Program-made: the position numbers and the translations under genes
Shown: positions 2,530 through 19,595 of the stretch, piece after piece
Layout: each line of letters begins with the position of its first letter
Position numbering within the stretch: position 1 is the first letter of the stretch
Notes under the pieces: generated by a model
What the model was told of the DNA's origin: nothing
Database searches by the model: none
The model's input: the letters and a program-made list of their open reading frames with translations, nothing else
NCBI GenBank assembly: GCA_005786805.1
Contig: SYCV01000228.1
Span: forward strand, 1 to 38,157
Direction: 5' to 3'
Source: Planctomycetia bacterium
Lineage (GTDB): Bacteria > Planctomycetota > Planctomycetia > Gemmatales > Gemmataceae
Length of the DNA stretch: 38,157 nucleotides

Positions 2530-4734
2530 TTACCGTTTAAAGGTTGAACCAGCCTGGTGAATTCTATTGCCAGAATCAATCACCCCAGAAGTAAGCTGGA
2601 TAAGGGCCTGATCAGCTTCCATGCGAACCCTGGGGTCCAGATCTGATTTCTTTTCACTGATTACTTCCAACACTTCTATACTATTGATTTTCATGCGACT
2701 AAGCGAGCGTATACATGCCGCACGAACCAAAGGTGCCGGATCCTCTTTTAATGCTGTTGCCAAAGCTTGGGCAGCCTGATTCATATTTGGCCCGCGTATT
2801 TTAGATAGTTGATCGGCGGCGTTTTCCCTTTGTGAGGGCTGGTTGGCATTTTTAAGAACCGCAATATTTTCAACTAAAATCGTGTCAACTTGTGCGATAT
2901 TTTGTTGGCCCGGAATAACAACTATTGTGCCTAGGGGTGTTTGGTCTAATGGGGCGTATTGTTGGATCGTATTTTGATTCGCATATGTGTTGACACCTTG
3001 GTTTTGAATGCCATTTATATTTGCCAAGGGTTGATTGAATGCGTTTTGCATGGCAATGGTAGTTTCAATATCAGAAGGAATTGGCCTTTGATTTGGAACG
3101 GGAGTGAAAGCGTTTGACATGCCTTGGGTTGGATATGCAGGCACCTGTGCCCTCATTGAGGGTATGGATGGATAAAGTTGTGGTGCTTGGGGTGGGGCGT
3201 ACATTGAGGCTGTTGGAGCTGGCCCTGTGGGTTGCCCATTGTTTAAATATTGGACAATCCTCACCGGTTCAGCCCCAGCGGCAATGACGGAACCATTCCC
3301 AGGAGGAATATTATCAGTAGTGGGCTTCTCAGAAGGGCGTCTTGCAAATATTCCGTAAACTCTGCCCATGGTTCTTTCAGCAAAGTCATTGGTTTTTGAA
3401 GTTTCTGAAGAGTTGACCTTTAAAATATTTGCTCTTGGTTGTCTGGGTTCCTTGATAATCAATATTGGATTTGAGGTTTCCAGGGTTTTCTCGGTGGCCT
3501 TATTTGTTGTTTTTGGAAAAGTTTTATTTTTTACCACTGGAGTGGTTTTAGATGTTATTTCCGTCGGTGCTTTTGCTAGTTCTTTTGGGGGAATGCGTGG
3601 GTTGGAATTTTCAGCAAGTTCAGCGGTGGTCTTGGTGGGATTTGCTTTTGATACAATCGCGTTTATTTCTTTATTGGCAGTATCATTTCCTACTGCTTTT
3701 ACTGCTTTTTTCGCGATTTTCTCCTCCAGTTTTGGATTCATAAAATCGACACTTTTTAGTGGATCAGGTTTTGTCTTGTCCGCATGGGGAAGTTCCACAT
3801 CGATTGGCTGGTTTTTAGTCGTGATATTTTTGTCTTGGGTGTTTTCAATCCGGCCCCATGATTTTCGCCAATCCAGTGCCTTTGGTTGTTCAAGCGGTGG
3901 TGATTGATTCGAAATACTAGTTGTATTATTTTCTGTTTTGATATTATCAGATGCTATTTTTGGAGATATTGGTTTTGGTTCAATATTTTTTTCCTTTGGT
4001 GTTGAAAGTGCTGGTGCGTTTTTTTGAATTTCTTTTACAGATATGACTTTTTCAGGTCCGGAATTGGTTGTCACAAGGACTTTTTCTTCTTTTAAAATTA
4101 CTATTTTGTCACTGTTGGGATTAACCTTCTGGAAAGTTATCAATTTTTTGTTTTTCTCTGGTACGACCACAACTTTGTCTGCCCCTGGTTCTGGTATGGT
4201 GATAAATTCAGTGGCAGATTTTTTTTCAGTTGATTGTTCAACCTCTTTTTTAATAGTGGCGGTTTCGATTTTTAACGGTTTGTTATTCTTTTGTATGGCT
4301 GTTTGTGTGGGGGTAACTGAAGAACTATTTACCGCAGTTCTTGCTTCCACCACTTTTGATTCCTTGGGAGTGATGGGAGTTTTTGTAAGCCCTTGATCTG
4401 GCGGTATTGGTGAACCTGCCGGCGGCACATCGTTATTTACCCAATGGTAATTTGTGGTTGTGTTTTTTTCCTTTGAATTTGCCGCATTCTGCACAATGGT
4501 GATTTTTTTTCCTGAATCCAATGCTTCCACCAGGAAGCATTGTTCGCCATTTTTACTGGTCCATGCCAATATTAACTTGCATTTTATTGGTGATTTCCCA
4601 TGCTCACTTAAGGTTAATAATTTTTCTTTGGGCTTTTGCACTTCGGTTACAGAATTTGTTTCTGAAAAGCCCAAACCTATTGTTGTTCCAGAAAGTGCCA
4701 AAAACAGGGAACTAAGCCATAATTTTCGTAGCAT
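2530..4734 (-). CDS. exported HEAT-repeat protein with long Lys/Thr/Pro-rich linker
   Basis: Function not recognised. The 734-residue product starts at ATG 4734, seven bases after GGGGGA; an in-frame ATG at 4752 lies within that ribosome site's upstream region. It has a Sec-type signal peptide (MLRKLWLSSLFLALSGTTIG) and a small N-terminal region with an ILAWTSKNGEQCFLVEALDSG stretch. A low-complexity Lys/Thr/Pro/Glu-rich segment spans about residues 90-480, and a Pro/Gln/Asn/Ala-rich segment about 490-640. At the C-terminus (about 645-725) are two or three HEAT-like repeats such as LVRAACIRSLSRM and DPRVRMEADQALIQL. Its layout suggests a periplasmic or envelope-attached protein with a spacer carrying a protein-binding HEAT module. 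fabI lies downstream on the same strand, 53 bases away, but shares no obvious pathway. The fold call for the C-terminus is good; the biological role is unknown. Confidence 0.72.
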   Translation of the reverse strand: MLRKLWLSSLFLALSGTTIGLGFSETNSVTEVQKPKEKLLTLSEHGKSPIKCKLILAWTSKNGEQCFLVEALDSGKKITIVQNAANSKEKNTTTNYHWVNNDVPPAGSPIPPDQGLTKTPITPKESKVVEARTAVNSSSVTPTQTAIQKNNKPLKIETATIKKEVEQSTEKKSATEFITIPEPGADKVVVVPEKNKKLITFQKVNPNSDKIVILKEEKVLVTTNSGPEKVISVKEIQKNAPALSTPKEKNIEPKPISPKIASDNIKTENNTTSISNQSPPLEQPKALDWRKSWGRIENTQDKNITTKNQPIDVELPHADKTKPDPLKSVDFMNPKLEEKIAKKAVKAVGNDTANKEINAIVSKANPTKTTAELAENSNPRIPPKELAKAPTEITSKTTPVVKNKTFPKTTNKATEKTLETSNPILIIKEPRQPRANILKVNSSETSKTNDFAERTMGRVYGIFARRPSEKPTTDNIPPGNGSVIAAGAEPVRIVQYLNNGQPTGPAPTASMYAPPQAPQLYPSIPSMRAQVPAYPTQGMSNAFTPVPNQRPIPSDIETTIAMQNAFNQPLANINGIQNQGVNTYANQNTIQQYAPLDQTPLGTIVVIPGQQNIAQVDTILVENIAVLKNANQPSQRENAADQLSKIRGPNMNQAAQALATALKEDPAPLVRAACIRSLSRMKINSIEVLEVISEKKSDLDPRVRMEADQALIQLTSGVIDSGNRIHQAGSTFKR

Positions 4735-4871
4735 GATCAAATCCCCCAGCATAGCGATTAAACTATGCCAAAAATGTTAGGTATTCTGTTGTATTTATCG
4801 GTAATGCTTAGAATTAGCTTGAAAGGGAATTTAACGAAAATTCTTAATAATCATGCGGGATGGTAAAATAG

Positions 4872-4904
4872 AAAAGGCCTGGTGCTTTAAGCATCAGGCC
4901 TTTT
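4872..4904 (-). terminator. intrinsic terminator of the exbB-exbD-cyclase-repeat operon
   Basis: Inverted repeat with 10-bp core arms GGCCTGGTGC and GCATCAGGCC (one G-U pair) around a TTTAA loop, flanked by AAAA and TTTT so that it can act in either direction. It starts 19 bases beyond the stop of the minus-strand gene ending at 4924, with a T-rich stretch downstream on the minus strand. Confidence 0.8.
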
Positions 4905-4923: not shown

Positions 4924-6744
4924 TTACTTAGCCCCACCCATTTCGCGGCGATATAAAGGCAAGTGTCTGTAGTAGACTTCCATAGTCAACATTGCCATGG
5001 AGGTTGACATAAGTCTACCACCCGCATCTGTATGCGCACCTATTGGGTCCCAACTACCAGCCAACATGACTTTTTTAGGATCAGTAGCAGGGATTTGTTT
5101 GCCAATTAGGATATCTCTCACACCATTTTTACGCTGGCCGTTAACTTCTGGCCCTAAATTCCAGAAGTCCCATGCTTCGCCACCCATGTGATGCATAACC
5201 TGTGTGGCATAATAGATTTGGTAAAGGTTGTAATTAGCAGGGCTTACAGCGGGATGGACTTTTTTCATAATCTCAACACCTTTTAAAAGCCCAGGGTTTC
5301 TTGGGTTAACACCCATGTATTGCCTGCAAAGCATACCAATAGCAGTCATAGCAGGAGAAGCACCGGGGTCGGTGTATCCATAACCACCCGATTTTGGATC
5401 ATGAACAGCATCAAGGTATTTTTCAACCATCTTATAACGCTCGGTCGGAACTTTAAGCCCAGCCATTTGGCCACTCTTTAAAGCCATTGTACACCAACCA
5501 GTAACAGAAGTATCACCGGGTTGTTTTGGGCCGTATCTCCAACCACCACCATCATGCTGCGCATAAATCAAATAATCCAAGGCTTTTTGAGCTGATATTT
5601 TGATCAGGGGATCTGAGGTCATCCCATAGGCTTCACACATGGCAATTGTTGCCAGGGGATGTGAATAAAGGCCCCCTCCATAATTTCCATCTTTGCCTTG
5701 TTTCTTAATAAGGAAGTTAACACCACCCATCACAGTTTTGCTGTAGTCTTCTTGGGATTTTTTGCCTGAAGGCTTATGGGTTATACCAGCGGCAAGGAAC
5801 GGTAATAAACCAAAACCAGTGCCTGCTATATCATTGCTCTGTGCCTTGTCAGTGTTTCGGTATTTGATCAGTTTGGAGGCAGGGTTTCCGATAGGGTGAG
5901 ATCGATAGTAATCACCATATTTATCAAGTGACCAGTGGCCATCATCAGCCTGATGAAGGGCAAAAAATCTTAAACCACGGGCAACGGCTGCTTCAGAAGC
6001 AGCATTACCGCCTCCCTCAGTCAAAAGTTTTTCACGTGTTGCACCGCTGCGACCTGCGATACCACCAGGCGCATATATTCCACCCATACCACCCAATGAG
6101 CCAACATTACTACCCAATCCAGAGACATCCAAGGAAGGAGCAGCACCAGTGCCACCACCAAAACCTGGAGGCGGAGGAACGTTGGAAGCTACAGTTTCGG
6201 GAGAATTTGGAATTCCAACCGATTGTGATGGGTCTTCGGGTCCGGGAACACTCATTTCATCTTTGCGGTCAACATTATATTGGGTTGGTACCTCGATATC
6301 ATTCCCGATATCGGTCACCGTTAAATCAGGTTCTGGTTCAGACTCCTCAACTTTTGTCGGTTCATCAAGCTTTGCAGCTTGAACTGGAGCGTTTTCAAAA
6401 GGAATTAACATGATCAACAGGATCAATAGACCATGCATTGCTGCACTCACAACACCGGCACCAAGTGCCCATGCAATATTTGCATAACCACCGTTGTCTT
6501 GAAGTGTTTCAGATAGTTCGACCCGTCCGGCTTCGTGTCCAATACCAGCAAAAACCGCTAGCCCCATTGCTGGTTTAGGAGCACTTACAGCAGGCTTAGC
6601 CCCCTCTAGGAGAATTGAAGAAACTTCTATACCCCTGTCACGGGCGATCATTTCAGCATTTTTTTCATTTTGGGCTACAATTTTGGATTCAATAGGCTTG
6701 CCTGTTGCCTTTATTGTGCCTTTAACAATGTAGTTCTGGGACAT
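4924..6744 (-). CDS. membrane-anchored protein with squalene-cyclase/prenyltransferase-like repeats, putative TonB-like partner of ExbBD
   Basis: 606 residues. Residues 1-48 form a small cytosolic domain (YIVKGTIKATGKP...AEMIARDRGIEVSSI) resembling the beta-hairpin modules of GspF-type N-termini. One membrane helix follows at about 89-116 (ALGAGVVSAAMHGLLILLIM). An acidic then Pro/Gly-rich linker (about 120-240; EESEPEPDLT, PPPPGFGGG) leads to repeats of the alpha/alpha-toroid family (about 250-600) with QADDGHWSLD, KQGKDGNYGGG, AQHDGGGWRYGP and SGGYGYTDPG. The repeat region aligns with squalene-hopene cyclases only in these QxxDG-W blocks. The acidic DxDD catalytic motif is absent (GDTSVTGW in its place), so enzyme activity is doubtful. 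AGGAG lies eight bases before the ATG. It is the last gene of an ExbB-ExbD-ExbD operon, and its single N-terminal helix plus Pro-rich linker mimic TonB architecture; I infer an energised envelope function. Fold confidence is high, function is inference. Confidence 0.8.
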   Translation of the reverse strand: MSQNYIVKGTIKATGKPIESKIVAQNEKNAEMIARDRGIEVSSILLEGAKPAVSAPKPAMGLAVFAGIGHEAGRVELSETLQDNGGYANIAWALGAGVVSAAMHGLLILLIMLIPFENAPVQAAKLDEPTKVEESEPEPDLTVTDIGNDIEVPTQYNVDRKDEMSVPGPEDPSQSVGIPNSPETVASNVPPPPGFGGGTGAAPSLDVSGLGSNVGSLGGMGGIYAPGGIAGRSGATREKLLTEGGGNAASEAAVARGLRFFALHQADDGHWSLDKYGDYYRSHPIGNPASKLIKYRNTDKAQSNDIAGTGFGLLPFLAAGITHKPSGKKSQEDYSKTVMGGVNFLIKKQGKDGNYGGGLYSHPLATIAMCEAYGMTSDPLIKISAQKALDYLIYAQHDGGGWRYGPKQPGDTSVTGWCTMALKSGQMAGLKVPTERYKMVEKYLDAVHDPKSGGYGYTDPGASPAMTAIGMLCRQYMGVNPRNPGLLKGVEIMKKVHPAVSPANYNLYQIYYATQVMHHMGGEAWDFWNLGPEVNGQRKNGVRDILIGKQIPATDPKKVMLAGSWDPIGAHTDAGGRLMSTSMAMLTMEVYYRHLPLYRREMGGAK

Positions 6745-6806
6745 TTCTTAAACTCCTAGACTAATAATCATCTAATTATTATCTCATGATTAAGTTAGAA
6801 AATCAA

Positions 6807-8018
6807 TTAAATCCTGTAATTGGGAAATCTTGAGTTTTTAGCATTAGATTCACTTTCTAATATTTTAGACGATGCTAAACCATTTTGGTTCCCAATATTT
6901 GGATCGTAATCCTTGAAAATAGGATCAATTTCGATTTTTCTGTTTCGCAAACGGGTTGAGATTTTCTGGTCTCCCCTTAGAAACCAAATTACCAGACCTA
7001 CAACGACTGATATCACTATCGCAAGGAATCCAACAAATAAGGGGAGCAATCCTTTGGCCCAAGAGGTGGTTTCTTCAGGAGTTATCAGGGATCCCCTTGT
7101 GACTTTCAAGGTTTTGCCAATGACCAAGGGAGTATCTTTCCATGGGTTTTGGCTCTCCGTATTCGCGGTCTTGTACCGGTACTTTTTGAAAAAGTAGCCT
7201 TGGAATTCGATTAGAAAATCATCTTTTTCAAATGGTTGGATGTTGTCTGGAAGTTGTGTCATCAGGATGCAAACCGGATTGGGGCCGTATATGTCTTGAA
7301 AAACCCAGCCTTCATAAAGCTCACTTACTCCCAGGTTGATTAAAGCTGATGGAGGTGTAATTTTTCTAAGACGCCTTAGTCTGCCCTTTATTTCCACAAC
7401 TTCGCCACGATTTGTTTTTGGCTTGGTCATCAGATCTGAAAAAGTTAAGTCTTTTCTTGCAGATTGGGCGAAAGCCTCTTCAGAAGTCTGGTAAGCCATA
7501 AGTACAAATTGAAAATATGCGGATGCTTCCAGGTCGTCATAGGTAGCCCCCAAAATAGGCTTTTCATCTTTGACCCGTTCAAGAAATTCCTCAGGAATAG
7601 GCCTAACCACATTGGAGTTGACAAGCGACCAGAAATCTTCTTCATCACCAATTTTCAATAATTCAATGGATTCAATGCCAATGGTTGGCGAGCCTGCGGG
7701 AAAAAGAATCAACCCACATGTTGCAAGCATGGTCTTTTCTTTTCTGGATGATAAGGGAGTGGAGAAAGACCATAAGTTGAATCCGGTGTCATCGCCGCTA
7801 ACCAAAGTTGAAAGCGTTCCCAATATTCCGATTCCCGGAGAAGTGCCTGACCCGATACATAAAGTTGCGAGATAGCTTGGTTCTGGTTGAAATAATTGGA
7901 ATAAGGGAACTGTTTCGATATCTTGCGAGTAAGATTTTTGTGGTGATAAGATATGAGGAAACAATAAAAGGAATGCTGAGATTAAGGTAATTTTGCAGGC
8001 TTTGAATGGGTTAGCCAT
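6807..8018 (-). CDS. exported single-pass membrane protein of unknown function in the ExbBD operon
   Basis: Not recognised. From ATG 8018 the product is 403 residues: a signal peptide (ITLISAFLLLFPHILS, cleavage near SYSQ), a periplasmic region of about 290 residues, and one transmembrane helix at about 330-352 (LLPLFVGFLAIVISVVVGLV). A positively charged cytosolic tail of about 50 residues follows (WFLRGDQKISTRLRNRK). Around residues 205-290, RGEVVEIKGRLRRLRKI and FLIEFQGYFFKKYRYK suggest paired OB-fold-like beta strands. An in-frame TTG at 8036 directly follows the exbD stop (TAATTG) and could be the start through translational coupling; both starts give a signal sequence. It sits between exbD and the cyclase-repeat gene, so it is probably an accessory subunit of the same machine. 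Confidence 0.68.
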   Translation of the reverse strand: MANPFKACKITLISAFLLLFPHILSPQKSYSQDIETVPLFQLFQPEPSYLATLCIGSGTSPGIGILGTLSTLVSGDDTGFNLWSFSTPLSSRKEKTMLATCGLILFPAGSPTIGIESIELLKIGDEEDFWSLVNSNVVRPIPEEFLERVKDEKPILGATYDDLEASAYFQFVLMAYQTSEEAFAQSARKDLTFSDLMTKPKTNRGEVVEIKGRLRRLRKITPPSALINLGVSELYEGWVFQDIYGPNPVCILMTQLPDNIQPFEKDDFLIEFQGYFFKKYRYKTANTESQNPWKDTPLVIGKTLKVTRGSLITPEETTSWAKGLLPLFVGFLAIVISVVVGLVIWFLRGDQKISTRLRNRKIEIDPIFKDYDPNIGNQNGLASSKILESESNAKNSRFPNYRI

Positions 8019-8036
8019 ATTTCGAGCCCGGAACAA

Positions 8037-8558
8037 TTAATTTACGACACTGATGTTGAATCCAGGTGGTTCAACGAAGCTTACATTTTTGAAACCAGCT
8101 TTGCGGCAGGTATCAGCCACCATGACCACATTGGACCATTTTAATTTGCTGGCAGGCTGGATTTTCACCACTTCTTTTTCGGTGGCGGTTTCATTGGCTA
8201 CTTTAAGCTTGTCAAATAGCTCTTTAAGATCACCCACGATGATAGACCCGGAATTTTGTTTTATGTGTATCTTTGCTATTTCTCCACGATTCACATCGTC
8301 AGTAACAGCTTCCACAACGATGGTGACATCCGCCTCGATCTTGGGGGGAGCATCGGGGTCTGGTGGTGGAGGTGGTTCTTTTGTTTCCTTGGCAGCAGCT
8401 TCATTTTCTGAAGGAAGGCTCAAATCAAACTGTCCTTCCAACCCTGATGGATTATAGGTGAAAATAAAGAATGTCAAAAGCTGGAAAGCCATATCAAGCA
8501 TCGGGGTGATTGGGAGTATGACTTCTGAAGCTGGTTCTTCGTGTTTCTTTTTACTCAT
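8037..8558 (-). CDS. exbD: ExbD/TolR-family biopolymer transport protein (first copy)
   Basis: Plug/stator partner of ExbB in proton-motive-force motors of the inner membrane. 173 residues: a short charged cytosolic N-terminus, then [19 protein letters not shown], the single membrane helix with the essential proton-carrying Asp (Asp22). A Pro-rich spacer ([14 protein letters not shown]) and a periplasmic C-terminal domain ending in a [13 protein letters not shown] strand follow. The spacer is longer than in classical ExbD (about 140 residues). ATG at 8558 overlaps the stop of the upstream exbD by four bases (ATGA), implying translational coupling. Two unequal ExbD copies suggest a heteromeric stator. 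Confidence 0.92.
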
Positions 8559-9082
8559 GTTGGTTGTGCCACACTTTTAGTTACAGCCCTGAGTTTTATT
8601 TGTCTAAATCCTTCAATTTTACACATTTGCAAAACCCGATAGACTTGGTCGTAATCAGTTAACTTATGGGCGCGCATTACGATAGTTGTCTTTACTTTGC
8701 CATCTTTGCTGGTTCGCTTTAGTGTGTTGAATTGGTTTCTGAGCCAAAATTTGAATTCACTGAATTTCATTGGCTCTTCACCGAGAATTATTATGAATGG
8801 GTCACCTTCCTTGAACTTATCAGTAAGTTTTTGAAGGGCTGTCGCGCCCTTTGATTCATAATCCTTCAGGATAAATGGTCTAACATTGATGAAAAGCACA
8901 TCAGTTTCATTTTTATCCATCGGAACGGCAGACATGGATTCTGGAAGTACGATTTCCTCTGAAACTTGGTTTGTAACAAAGTTGACGCACATCATGAAGA
9001 ACATAAGTAACTGCAAAACCACATCCAAGAGAGGAGTGAGGTTTGGTTCCATGTTCCCTTCGCCGGATCCACCATGACTCAT
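8555..9082 (-). CDS. exbD: ExbD/TolR-family biopolymer transport protein (second copy)
   Basis: 175 residues. The N-terminus [20 protein letters not shown] leads into the membrane helix [18 protein letters not shown], with the conserved Asp at residue 20. A periplasmic TolR-like domain follows, including [37 protein letters not shown] and a final strand [16 protein letters not shown] precedes the ATG by about eight bases. It lies 116 bases downstream of exbB and overlaps the next exbD by four bases. It probably works with ExbB and the other ExbD in the same inner-membrane motor; the two copies are clearly different sequences rather than a recent duplication. Confidence 0.92.
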
Positions 9083-9198
9083 GGTTATTGGCCTCTAACT
9101 TTAAATTTTTGCTAGGTTAACCAGTTATGCAGTGCCTAAATCATTGTAACACTGCCAGCTAGCTCTATTTATTTGAAATAAAACCCGTCTGACAAAAA

Positions 9199-10044
9199 TT
9201 ATTTTGCGGCACCAGGGGTGGCAATACTAGGTGATGAAGCCGGATTAGCAACGGCTGGTTGTCCTGCTGCTTTTTTCGTGCTGTGGTACATTTGAGTTAA
9301 TAGATCATCAGCTATCAAGCTGGTATCCATGGAAATTTTAATCAGACGATTTCTGTAAAATGCATGGAAGAAAATTGCAGGAACCGAAAGTCCGATACCA
9401 AGCAGCGTAACAACAAGAGCATGTGAAATACCATCAGCAAGTTTATCTGGCCTTGGGGTGGACCCGGGCTTACCGAGTTCCATGAAGCTAAGAATCATAC
9501 CAAAAACGGTACCAACCAAACCAATAAGGGGCCCAAGGGTTCCGATTGTGGAAAGATAGGTGATGGATTGTTCCTTGCTTGCTTTGATGCTATCAACCAT
9601 ATTGTAAGCGGATTCACGGGCATCCTCGATGCCATATTGCAACCTGGACATCCCCTGACTCATCACTCTTCCGAGAAATGATCCATCTTCCTTGGCGATA
9701 TCAAAAGCTTGTTTGAATTGCTTTTTATTCACAAGATCCGTGAATTCCTCGACAAAATTTGGAGGAATTGAAGTAGCCATTCTAAGTTCCATGGCTAGAA
9801 GGCAGATAAACGCAATCAAAGCGATTGAAATTATGAGAATGAGTGGTCCGAAAACCCAACCAGCAGACTTAATGATGTGCACAAATAAGCTTGTGTTAGC
9901 GGCAGGTTTGCTTTCGCCGCCTTCTTCCTTCTTTTCAGCAGCAGGCGGGGCCCCTTCTTGAAATGCGTACGAGGTATTGGTGTTTAAAAAAAATCCTGCT
10001 ACCACCAGAAACATAAATACAAGTTTTGACAAATTCCCTGCCAT
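9199..10044 (-). CDS. exbB: ExbB/TolQ/MotA-family proton channel protein
   Basis: Pentamer-forming proton channel subunit that couples proton flow to motion of ExbD and a TonB-like partner. The start at 10044 (281 aa) is chosen because AAGGGG lies six bases upstream; an earlier in-frame ATG at 10071 has no such site. An N-terminal signal-like helix (LVFMFLVVAGFFLNT) ends in SYAFQEG and a Lys/Glu-rich spacer. Three membrane helices follow: WVFGPLILIISIALIAFICL, GTLGPLIGLVGTVFGMILSF (the Thr/Gly-rich MotA_ExbB signature) and LVVTLLGIGLSVPAIFFHAF. A cytosolic helical loop lies between the first two (VDLVNKKQFKQAFDIAKEDG-like region). An Ala/Pro-rich tail ends the protein. The cleavable-signal-plus-three-TM arrangement occurs in planctomycete and Bacteroidetes ExbB proteins. 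First gene of the five-gene operon. Confidence 0.93.
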   Translation of the reverse strand: MAGNLSKLVFMFLVVAGFFLNTNTSYAFQEGAPPAAEKKEEGGESKPAANTSLFVHIIKSAGWVFGPLILIISIALIAFICLLAMELRMATSIPPNFVEEFTDLVNKKQFKQAFDIAKEDGSFLGRVMSQGMSRLQYGIEDARESAYNMVDSIKASKEQSITYLSTIGTLGPLIGLVGTVFGMILSFMELGKPGSTPRPDKLADGISHALVVTLLGIGLSVPAIFFHAFYRNRLIKISMDTSLIADDLLTQMYHSTKKAAGQPAVANPASSPSIATPGAAK

Positions 10045-10261
10045 GATATTCCCCTTGTTAAGCTTTAACATACTTGATTACCCATTGAAATTTCAAAAAT
10101 AAGCAAAAGTAAAATCTTTAAATTAAAATCAAACGCTCCAAAATCTCATCAGACTTTAATACCTTTTCACTAGCGATGCAATAATCAATTTACAATTTGA
10201 CGCAAAAGGACAAATTAGTCGCATCAAAGAAATAAGAATCAAGATTTAAATCATATTCTTA

Positions 10262-10290
10262 ATAACACAGGTTGCACCTTGTTTTGTCAA
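10262..10290 (-). promoter_or_regulatory. probable sigma70-type promoter for the exbB operon
   Basis: On the minus strand TTGACA (10290-10285) is followed by a 17-base spacer and TGTTAT (10267-10262; four of six matches to TATAAT). It points toward exbB, begins only 13 bases after the stop of the epimerase gene, and would give a leader of about 210 bases before the exbB start. Motif match only; planctomycete promoter rules are poorly known. Confidence 0.4.
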
Positions 10291-17499: not shown

Positions 17500-18285
17500 T
17501 TGTCTCTTGAAAAGACGGAATCATTGGTATTGAGAACGGTCGATTGGAGCGAAACCAGTCGCATTTCAACATTGTGGACCAGGGATTTTGGCAAGGTGAG
17601 GGCTTTGGCCAAAGGCGGTCGAAGGCTGAAATCATCCTTTGAGAATGCCCTTGACTTGCTTACATATTGCAGTATCGTTCTGCTCCGCAAGACTTCCGGT
17701 ACCTTGGATTTGTTGACTGAGGCCCAGGTATTAGATGGGTTTTCCGGATTGAGAAAAGATTTGAATGCTTTGCATGCGTCTTATTATCTTGCAGAATTGC
17801 TCTCGGATTGGACCGAGGATTACGACCCGAATCCGGTTATTTTTGATCAGGCATTGGTTGCTTTGAAGACCTGGAGTGATTTGGGGGACGGAAAATCAGG
17901 GTTGGACCAGGAGGAAAGACGGGCATGGATATCCCTGGTGCTTTTTCGCTTTGAATTTATTTTGCTTTCGGAATTGGGCTTCCGCCCTGAGTTAAAAATG
18001 TGTACGGGCTGTTCTGAGGTGGCTGATGTTTCGAATTGTGCATTCAGTCCTGCTGGAGGCGGCGTAAAATGTCCAACTTGTTCTGTTGCAGACAGGACTT
18101 CCTTCAAAATTTCAAGCGAAAGCTTGGGCATTCTTGGTTCATTGGGGAGCGAGACCTTGGAAACCCACAAAATCATACCCCTGCAACAAAGAAAAGAATT
18201 AAGAAAGATTTTCGGCCGCTATGTCACTTATCTGATGGGGCGAAGACCGAAGCTTCTAACTTATCTGGAGGCTGGATGCATTTGA
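17500..18285 (+). CDS. recO: DNA repair protein RecO
   Basis: Recombination mediator that loads RecA onto SSB-coated DNA in the RecFOR pathway. 261 residues. The N-terminal OB fold begins KTESLVLRTVDWSETSRIST and includes DFGKVRALAKGGRRLKSSF, which matches the RecO signature (xxGxxxxxAKGxRRxxS). A helical middle region contains HASYYLAELLSDW. A C-terminal four-Cys zinc site (CTGCSEV and KCPTC) is followed by a helical tail. It starts at TTG with GAGG upstream. Its last ten bases overlap the next gene, whose ribosome site and ATG lie inside recO. Part of the parA-to-HEAT gene run. Confidence 0.92.
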   Translation: MSLEKTESLVLRTVDWSETSRISTLWTRDFGKVRALAKGGRRLKSSFENALDLLTYCSIVLLRKTSGTLDLLTEAQVLDGFSGLRKDLNALHASYYLAELLSDWTEDYDPNPVIFDQALVALKTWSDLGDGKSGLDQEERRAWISLVLFRFEFILLSELGFRPELKMCTGCSEVADVSNCAFSPAGGGVKCPTCSVADRTSFKISSESLGILGSLGSETLETHKIIPLQQRKELRKIFGRYVTYLMGRRPKLLTYLEAGCI

Positions 18286-19595
18286 ATATTCCAGAAAAAA
18301 TCAGGCGTTCCAAAAATATGGTCATCTCTAAATTGGCGGGATTGTTATTTCCGGGGTTCTTTCTATTTGCGTCCACTGGTTGTGTGACGGATGGCCTGCC
18401 ATTGATCGGTCTGCCAAGCGCTCCTCCACCCCCAAGGGAAAGTTTTGTTCTTGGTGCTGATGGTGTTGTCTTGGACAAACCGGTTGATCCTGCAAGCCCG
18501 GAGGGAAAACTTGCTGGTGCCAAGGAATTATTCAGGAATAAAGAGTATTCCAAGGCTGAAAAAATATTTCACAGGCTGGCAGATGATAAAAAAAATCCCC
18601 AGACTGCTGAGGAAGGGACTTATTACGAAGCTGAATGTCTACGGCTTCAAGGGCATTATCCAAAAGCCGCTGATACCTATGTGAAATTACTCAAAAATTT
18701 TGAAAGAACCGCCTTCAGGGAACAGGCTGTTCAGCATATGTATGATATCGCGAATTACTGGCTTGATGATACTCGTGAGCAAATGCGTGAGACCAAGGAA
18801 TACCGAGAGGGAAAACGTTGGTTTGTGGCCCCGAGATTCATAAGTTTCGACAAGACAAAGCCCTTGATTGATCGTGAAGGTCGTGCGATTGAAAAACTGG
18901 AACAGGTTCGATGGAATGATATTAGTGGGCCCCTGGCGGACAAGGCTTTATTCTTGGCGGGCAGCGTGAAGTTCTTTAATGAAGACTATCGTGAGGCAGA
19001 CCACTATTTCACCCAACTTGTGGAGAGGCATTCTAACAGTGAACTCGCGCCCCAAGCTGTTGAGCTTGCGATCATATCCAAGCATATGAGCACGGGTGGC
19101 TCGGATTATGACGGGCGGAAAGTGGCCGAGGCCAGACAGATGGTGCATTCCGCATTGCAGAATTTTCCCGTTCTGGCAGAAAAGAAAAAAGATTTTCTAT
19201 CCAGGCAACTTGTGGGCATCACATTCCAACAGGCGGAAAAAGATTTCAAGATGGCGGAATTTTACAAGAGGACCGGGCATCCGGGGTCGGCATACTTTTA
19301 TTATGAACTTGTGCGCCGTAGATACCCGAACACGAAATTTGCCGAGGAATCTGAAAAAAAGATGGCGGAGCTGAAATCTAAAGCTGAAAAAGATCATGGT
19401 TATCTGCCGGGTGGGCCTGACCAACCTGTAGAGCAACCTTTGGTTCCAGAAATCGCACCAGCGCCCAAGCAGGTTGATAAGCCAATGGAAGAAGGGCCTG
19501 TGCCTCTGCAAAGTCAGCAGGGACTTCCTCCTCACCCGGATGCGAAGCCTGCCAAGGATTCCAAGCCGGTTACATTGCCAAAATCTCTGAATTAA
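18276..19595 (+). CDS. BamD/YbgF-like tetratricopeptide lipoprotein
   Basis: Probable outer-membrane assembly lipoprotein. 439 residues from ATG 18276, chosen because GGAG lies five bases upstream; the frame is open further back into recO but that part is a shadow. A signal segment (AGLLFPGFFLFASTGC) ends in a lipobox-like STGC, predicting lipidation at Cys. Tetratricopeptide pairs follow: AKELFRNKEYSKAEKIFHRL, AECLRLQGHYPKAADTYVKL, ALFLAGSVKFFNEDYREADH and a late MAEFYKRTGHPGSAYFYYEL(V)RRRYPNT, the last being very BamD-like. A Pro-rich tail closes it. It is longer than E. coli BamD (about 245 residues). It overlaps recO by ten bases and is followed by lptE after 11 bases, which supports an outer-membrane biogenesis role. 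Confidence 0.82.
   Translation: MHLNIPEKIRRSKNMVISKLAGLLFPGFFLFASTGCVTDGLPLIGLPSAPPPPRESFVLGADGVVLDKPVDPASPEGKLAGAKELFRNKEYSKAEKIFHRLADDKKNPQTAEEGTYYEAECLRLQGHYPKAADTYVKLLKNFERTAFREQAVQHMYDIANYWLDDTREQMRETKEYREGKRWFVAPRFISFDKTKPLIDREGRAIEKLEQVRWNDISGPLADKALFLAGSVKFFNEDYREADHYFTQLVERHSNSELAPQAVELAIISKHMSTGGSDYDGRKVAEARQMVHSALQNFPVLAEKKKDFLSRQLVGITFQQAEKDFKMAEFYKRTGHPGSAYFYYELVRRRYPNTKFAEESEKKMAELKSKAEKDHGYLPGGPDQPVEQPLVPEIAPAPKQVDKPMEEGPVPLQSQQGLPPHPDAKPAKDSKPVTLPKSLN

Follow-up and report, generated by a model that had tools for sequence, protein, structure and literature searches.

A putative ExbB-ExbD-driven envelope transducer with a squalene-cyclase-type toroid head in Planctomycetota

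The stretch of DNA analysed here (the window) comprises positions 1 to 38,157 of contig SYCV01000228.1 in the planctomycete assembly GCA_005786805.1. On its minus strand, reading from 10071 down to 4924, lie five codirectional genes: exbB, exbD1, exbD2, a gene encoding a 409-aa protein, and a gene encoding a protein with a C-terminal alpha/alpha-toroid. The ExbB-ExbD-ExbD set was already recognized in the original prediction, made from the sequence alone, and the Pfam matches exceed the curated cut-offs (81.7 bits versus 22.9 for MotA_ExbB; 61.3 and 53.3 bits versus 25.4 for the ExbD domains of exbD1 and exbD2, respectively). The features of the locus are as follows:

10262..10290, minus strand: promoter-like TTGACA-17-TGTTAT, spotted by eye; weak
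9199..10071, minus strand: exbB, 290 aa; MotA_ExbB 5e-23 (Pfam)
8555..9082, minus strand: exbD1, 175 aa; ExbD 1.3e-16 (Pfam), transmembrane (TM) Asp in PLLD
8037..8558, minus strand: exbD2, 173 aa; ExbD 3.8e-14 (Pfam), TM Asp in PMLD
6807..8036, minus strand: 409-aa protein gene; signal-like N-terminus, OB-fold core and C-terminal TM, from a structure model and fold search
4924..6744, minus strand: toroid gene, 606 aa; putative TonB-like transducer
6409..6489, minus strand: TM helix of the toroid protein, residues 86-112, from the structure model; contains Ser100-x3-His104
6049..6393, minus strand: disordered acidic/Pro/Gly linker of the toroid protein, residues 118-232; pLDDT <50, contains LTVTDIG (140-146)
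4978..6045, minus strand: squalene-cyclase-type alpha/alpha-toroid, residues 234-589, from the model, fold search and profile
4863..4904, minus strand: intrinsic terminator, -19.6 kcal/mol, z -5.25, T-rich run after it

The exbD1 and exbD2 genes overlap by 4 nt, the 409-aa gene directly abuts exbD2, and 62 bases separate it from the start of the toroid gene. An alternative exbB start at 10044, behind AAGGGG, is as plausible as 10071 and agrees with the original prediction. All five genes are under purifying selection, with pN/pS values of 0.04-0.21 against one genome of the same genus. Of the two flanks first proposed for the operon, the terminator downstream of the toroid gene is real and strong, but the site upstream of exbB is only plausible as a promoter; promoter-like sites in the operon region are not in excess over chance expectation. 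Just past the terminator, at 2530-4752, the window encodes a large low-complexity protein, rich in Pro and Thr, that has a HEAT repeat at its C-terminus. Further along, a RecO-like open reading frame (17500-18285) overlaps a TPR open reading frame (18036-19595) by about 250 bases, and their starts are provisional.

The ExbB proteins of toroid operons were aligned to an E. coli ExbB sequence consistent with the published numbering. The TM1 serine is kept, as are the equivalents of Thr148, Thr181, and Pro190. The TM1 register was set by eye, automatic alignment having displaced the invariant serine by about ten columns, and the equivalence to Ser34 rests on equal spacing to an acidic residue at +13. 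Trp38 is not conserved: no Trp lies four residues past the TM1 serine in the aligned ExbBs.

The structure predicted for the 409-aa protein comprises a signal-like N-terminus, a confident core, and a C-terminal TM helix. The best structural matches of the core are OB-folds, at a weak E of 4e-4; an SSB-like match was also weak, and it was taken to indicate an OB-fold only, not DNA binding. The protein was found in 41 of 50 relatives and often adjoins ExbD pairs, and it is therefore more readily seen as an accessory of the motor than as a partner of the toroid protein. In some genomes, the ExbD pair and the OB-fold gene occur together and the toroid genes lie elsewhere. ExbD pairs that keep the OB-fold gene without an adjacent toroid gene include G029:C1, G091:C32, and G103:C2.

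The AlphaFold2 model of the toroid protein begins with a beta-beta-alpha-beta mini-domain (residues 3-46), followed by a helix (86-112), a disordered segment (118-232) of acidic/Pro/Gly composition, and an all-helical domain (234-589) with pLDDT of about 90. The single membrane helix and the acidic, Pro-rich linker were thus correctly anticipated. The cytosolic N-terminal mini-domain proposed at the same time is present in the model, but it occurs only within the genus and in a single close relative, whereas conservation of the SxxxH helix and of the toroid holds throughout. The helical domain superposes on squalene-hopene cyclase (2sqc) with Z 26.7 and an rmsd of 2.7 Å over 280 residues, and the family profile reaches the same enzyme at E 8e-13. 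Sugar epimerases and GH76 toroids were the runners-up in the fold search. Squalene-cyclase Pfam matches to the protein are all sub-threshold, and Pfam returned no TonB match; the C-terminal domain is a toroid, not a TonB_C or TolA C-terminal domain.

The QW motif is kept in 157 of 160 toroid relatives (QADDGHW at residue 265 of the window protein), and the toroid alignment contains many invariant polar and aromatic residues. By pattern search, the catalytic DxDD motif is missing from the window protein; it matches 5 of the 160 relatives and is absent from the other 155. An alpha/alpha-toroid without DxDD had been expected at this position, and that description stands. The absence of DxDD led us to discard an active terpene cyclase as the principal interpretation. 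The protein further differs from squalene-hopene cyclases and other class II terpene cyclases in carrying a single toroid on a TM-linker stalk and in falling below the curated family cut-offs. Foldseek matches to C4, C5, and A2ML1 raised the possibility of a complement-type thioester domain, which was dropped because no CxEQ occurs in the 160 toroids. In the window's own genome, the best-scoring other toroid paralogues are three stalkless proteins of 372-385 aa, apparently exported (L203-L205; G000:C2:2470-3396, C236:4678-5637, and C174:17186-18208).

It is the TM helix that suggests a connection of this protein to the motor. TonB and TolA bind their motors via an SHLS motif (PMC12204202), and in a cryo-EM structure Ser16 and His20 of TonB contact Ser34 and Trp38 of ExbB, linked to Pro190 (PMC12215075). 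The helix of the window protein carries S100-AAM-H104, that is, Ser-x3-His, and at the level of sequence these two residues correspond to the TonB/TolA motor-docking pair Ser16/His20. Ser100 is invariant in 41/41 and 36/36 aligned toroid homologues. In a set of 120 distinct toroid proteins, all with an N-terminal TM, that TM contains S-x3-H in 100 and S-x3-[HN] in 116, with Asn replacing His in some operon-linked members. The background is 11 of 329 control single-TM ORFs (3%) and 7% of shuffled TM segments; the controls are ORFs rather than curated genes, which makes the ratio approximate, though the gap is very large. The same motif is found in the TM helix of three of the four canonical planctomycete TonB proteins (with TonB_C) that were recovered in full. 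The remaining SHLS positions are not kept in the window protein, where the Leu position is Ile111 and the second Ser position is Pro115.

Some toroid proteins have additional TMs or a PD40 propeller; in these, it is the SxxxH helix that stands directly before the linker and toroid, so that helix, linker, and toroid behave as one module. The PD40 beta-propeller lies ahead of the helix in two toroid transducers, L165 (2342-5875) and L148 (5038-8571). S-x3-H is at residue 410 of the former, and the latter shares its N-terminal sequence and length. ExbB and ExbD are preceded at L165 by a TPR gene; L154, which has no propeller, has in this place a gene that matches it in length and start type.

Linkage to the motor genes recurs among relatives. 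Within the window's family, 18 of 25 sampled toroid loci have a codirectional exbD no more than 4 kb away; the loci were picked by toroid similarity, so this is a share of the sample and not of all family members. In four further loci of the 25, one of which lies close to the end of a contig, the toroid gene adjoins the 409-aa gene but not exbD. A second arrangement, ExbB-ExbD followed by a long toroid protein (716-1315 aa, usually with S-x3-H), is present in several other families. The ExbB-ExbD-toroid arrangement was seen in 11 of 20 fetched loci, which were partly chosen for it. The expectation that the repeat protein is conserved with exbBD thus holds within the window's family. Many S-x3-H toroid paralogues are encoded away from exbBD; we infer that these, too, would pair with a motor. 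Their position is compatible with several transducers sharing one motor, by analogy with unlinked tonB genes.

The toroid family is present in 147 of 149 relatives and in 177 of 199 sampled Planctomycetota, TonB_C in 23 of 149 relatives, and plug domains of TonB-dependent transporters (TBDTs) in 44 of 149. TolB_N was detected in 0 of 99 relatives. In the seven genomes of the window's genus, TonB_C, plug, and TolB_N were each detected in 0/7, and the separate tonB gene whose search had been suggested is accordingly undetected there. No canonical tonB was found at the toroid locus of relatives either; in the genomes checked, TonB_C matches are on other contigs or, in one genome (G101), about 59 kb away. 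In the window's metagenome-assembled genome (MAG), which is 88.7% complete, ExbD was detected only in this operon. The other six genomes of the genus have four or five ExbD matches each, that is, a second motor. In G004, this second motor (L163, 6599-9450) consists of ExbB and two ExbDs that carry an additional N-terminal domain. Beside it, in the opposite orientation, lies the gene of a 310-aa protein that matches no Pfam domain and has S-x3-H in its TM helix (SFIVH); this protein may be another type of transducer.

Considered together, these observations make it probable that the operon encodes a proton-motive-force-driven trans-envelope motor, with the 606-aa protein as a TonB/TolA-type force transducer bearing a toroid head. 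In the proposed mechanism, the proton-driven motor would consist of ExbB, which is probably pentameric, together with the ExbD1/ExbD2 pair, and the single TM helix would dock on ExbB via its Ser100-x3-His104 face, as TonB does via Ser16/His20. The disordered linker would span part of the periplasm. The toroid, lacking DxDD, would replace the TonB/TolA C-terminal domain and grip a periplasmic, peptidoglycan, or outer-membrane ligand, and the 409-aa protein would act as a motor-associated accessory. Docking and force transmission are suggested by the sequence features described above; ligand binding would be non-catalytic, and the toroid would be pulled and would touch an outer-membrane or periplasmic target. 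At the sequence level, the original proposal of a motor-linked, TonB-like partner is supported by the TonB-type helix, which would dock on the ExbB/ExbD motor; the S-x3-H motif in it was not part of that proposal and thus counts as independent evidence. Several features speak against the force-transducer reading: the strict D-box and ExbB Trp38 are missing, Ile111 and Pro115 depart from SHLS, some operon-linked proteins have Asn for His, many S-x3-H paralogues lie away from exbBD, and in some genomes the ExbD pair and OB-fold gene are separated from the toroid genes.

The likeness to TonB comprises the single TM helix with S-x3-H, the acidic, Pro-rich periplasmic linker, a globular C-terminal domain, and linkage to exbB and exbD. 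The differences are the squalene-cyclase-type toroid in place of TonB_C, the absence of a strict D-box, the two different ExbDs and the OB-fold accessory in the operon, and the lack of detected TBDT plugs in the genus. A direct precedent for an exchanged head is offered by the vWA-tipped SHLS transducers, which share the TolA/TonB layout, the SHLS helix, and a non-homologous C-terminal domain, and whose genes in PVC bacteria adjoin tolQ and two differing tolR genes (PMC12204202). Their head is a vWA domain; the 606-aa protein has no vWA C-terminal domain and ends in the helical toroid instead. In view of this precedent, the toroid version is read as a variant of a known transducer type. The text of PMC12204202 does not mention toroid, squalene, cyclase, or prenyl, and no description of a toroid-tipped ExbBD transducer was found in the open-licence literature.

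A narrower form of the force-transducer explanation, differing in target only, casts the toroid protein as the counterpart of TolA: a proton-motive-force-driven outer-membrane tether or constriction device that replaces Tol-Pal and does not serve Ton-type nutrient uptake. It would resemble TolA in its SHLS-type docking, which TolA uses on the TolQ/R motor, and could serve outer-membrane integrity; it differs in having a toroid where TolA has its own C-terminal domain. TolB_N was not detected in the 99 relatives while the toroid family is nearly universal among the 149; plug domains are absent from the genus, where a Ton role would therefore be without receptors; and PD40, the type of repeat found in TolB, forms the propeller fused to some of the toroid transducers. 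However, the operon contains no Pal or Pal-like partner, and genomes carry many toroid paralogues, which points to several targets more than to a single division function. We regard this version as possible but doubtful.

Alternatively, the toroid protein could be a membrane-tethered periplasmic enzyme, terpene-cyclase-like or glycan-active, with the TM as a mere anchor and the motor used otherwise. Such an enzyme would account for the squalene-hopene cyclase fold with its sugar-epimerase and GH76 runners-up, the retained QW motif, the invariant polar and aromatic residues, which could form an active site, and the many paralogues unlinked to exbBD. Nevertheless, the window protein and nearly all of its relatives lack DxDD, a plain anchor would not be expected to keep S-x3-H so far above the control TMs, and linkage to exbBD recurs in two different arrangements, which makes an enzyme unlikely.

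A bearing on how force might pass comes from the D-box, an ExbD-binding pattern (PMC10907165) of alternating hydrophobic and polar residues. Its strict form is absent from the window linker, where the related LTVTDIG is present, and was found in 1 of 21 operon-linked linkers examined. The ExbD grip that TonB needs may therefore be missing, and together with the unconserved ExbB Trp38 this would suit a partner with a regulatory or sensory role, gating the motor without transmitting force, but the long disordered periplasmic linker with a folded end domain is the layout of a force transducer and the operon holds no other TonB/TolA candidate, so that we consider such a role quite improbable.

The force-transducer reading bears on a wider question. 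ExbBD and TolQR motors are the known means of powering the outer membrane, and the toroid-tipped transducer would be a widespread, apparently undescribed way to pull on the cell envelope. It is relevant to how the outer membrane is powered in lineages with no detectable Tol-Pal and mostly without TonB. A conserved SHLS-type transducer that ends in an unrelated domain points to interchangeable heads. It also gives a named, testable set of genes for work on energised envelopes in Planctomycetota, cultured species included. More speculatively, Planctomycetota may have largely replaced Ton and Tol-Pal with phylum-wide toroid-tipped transducers. A single proton motor, or a small number of them, would then power many different toroid heads, whose genes may or may not adjoin those of the motor and each of which grips an envelope ligand of its own; a lipid or glycan could occupy the cavity of the toroid, giving an energised machine that handles such molecules. 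We offer this joint claim only tentatively.

Members of several Planctomycetota families (f52, f83, f84, and f42) lack the toroid family at the threshold used, many of them near-complete genomes, and they form a natural contrast group. Close planctomycete toroid genes were also found in MAGs titled Candidatus Kuenenia, Bacteroidales, and Candidatus Nealsonbacteria (L086, L109, and L116), which are probably mislabelled or contaminated.
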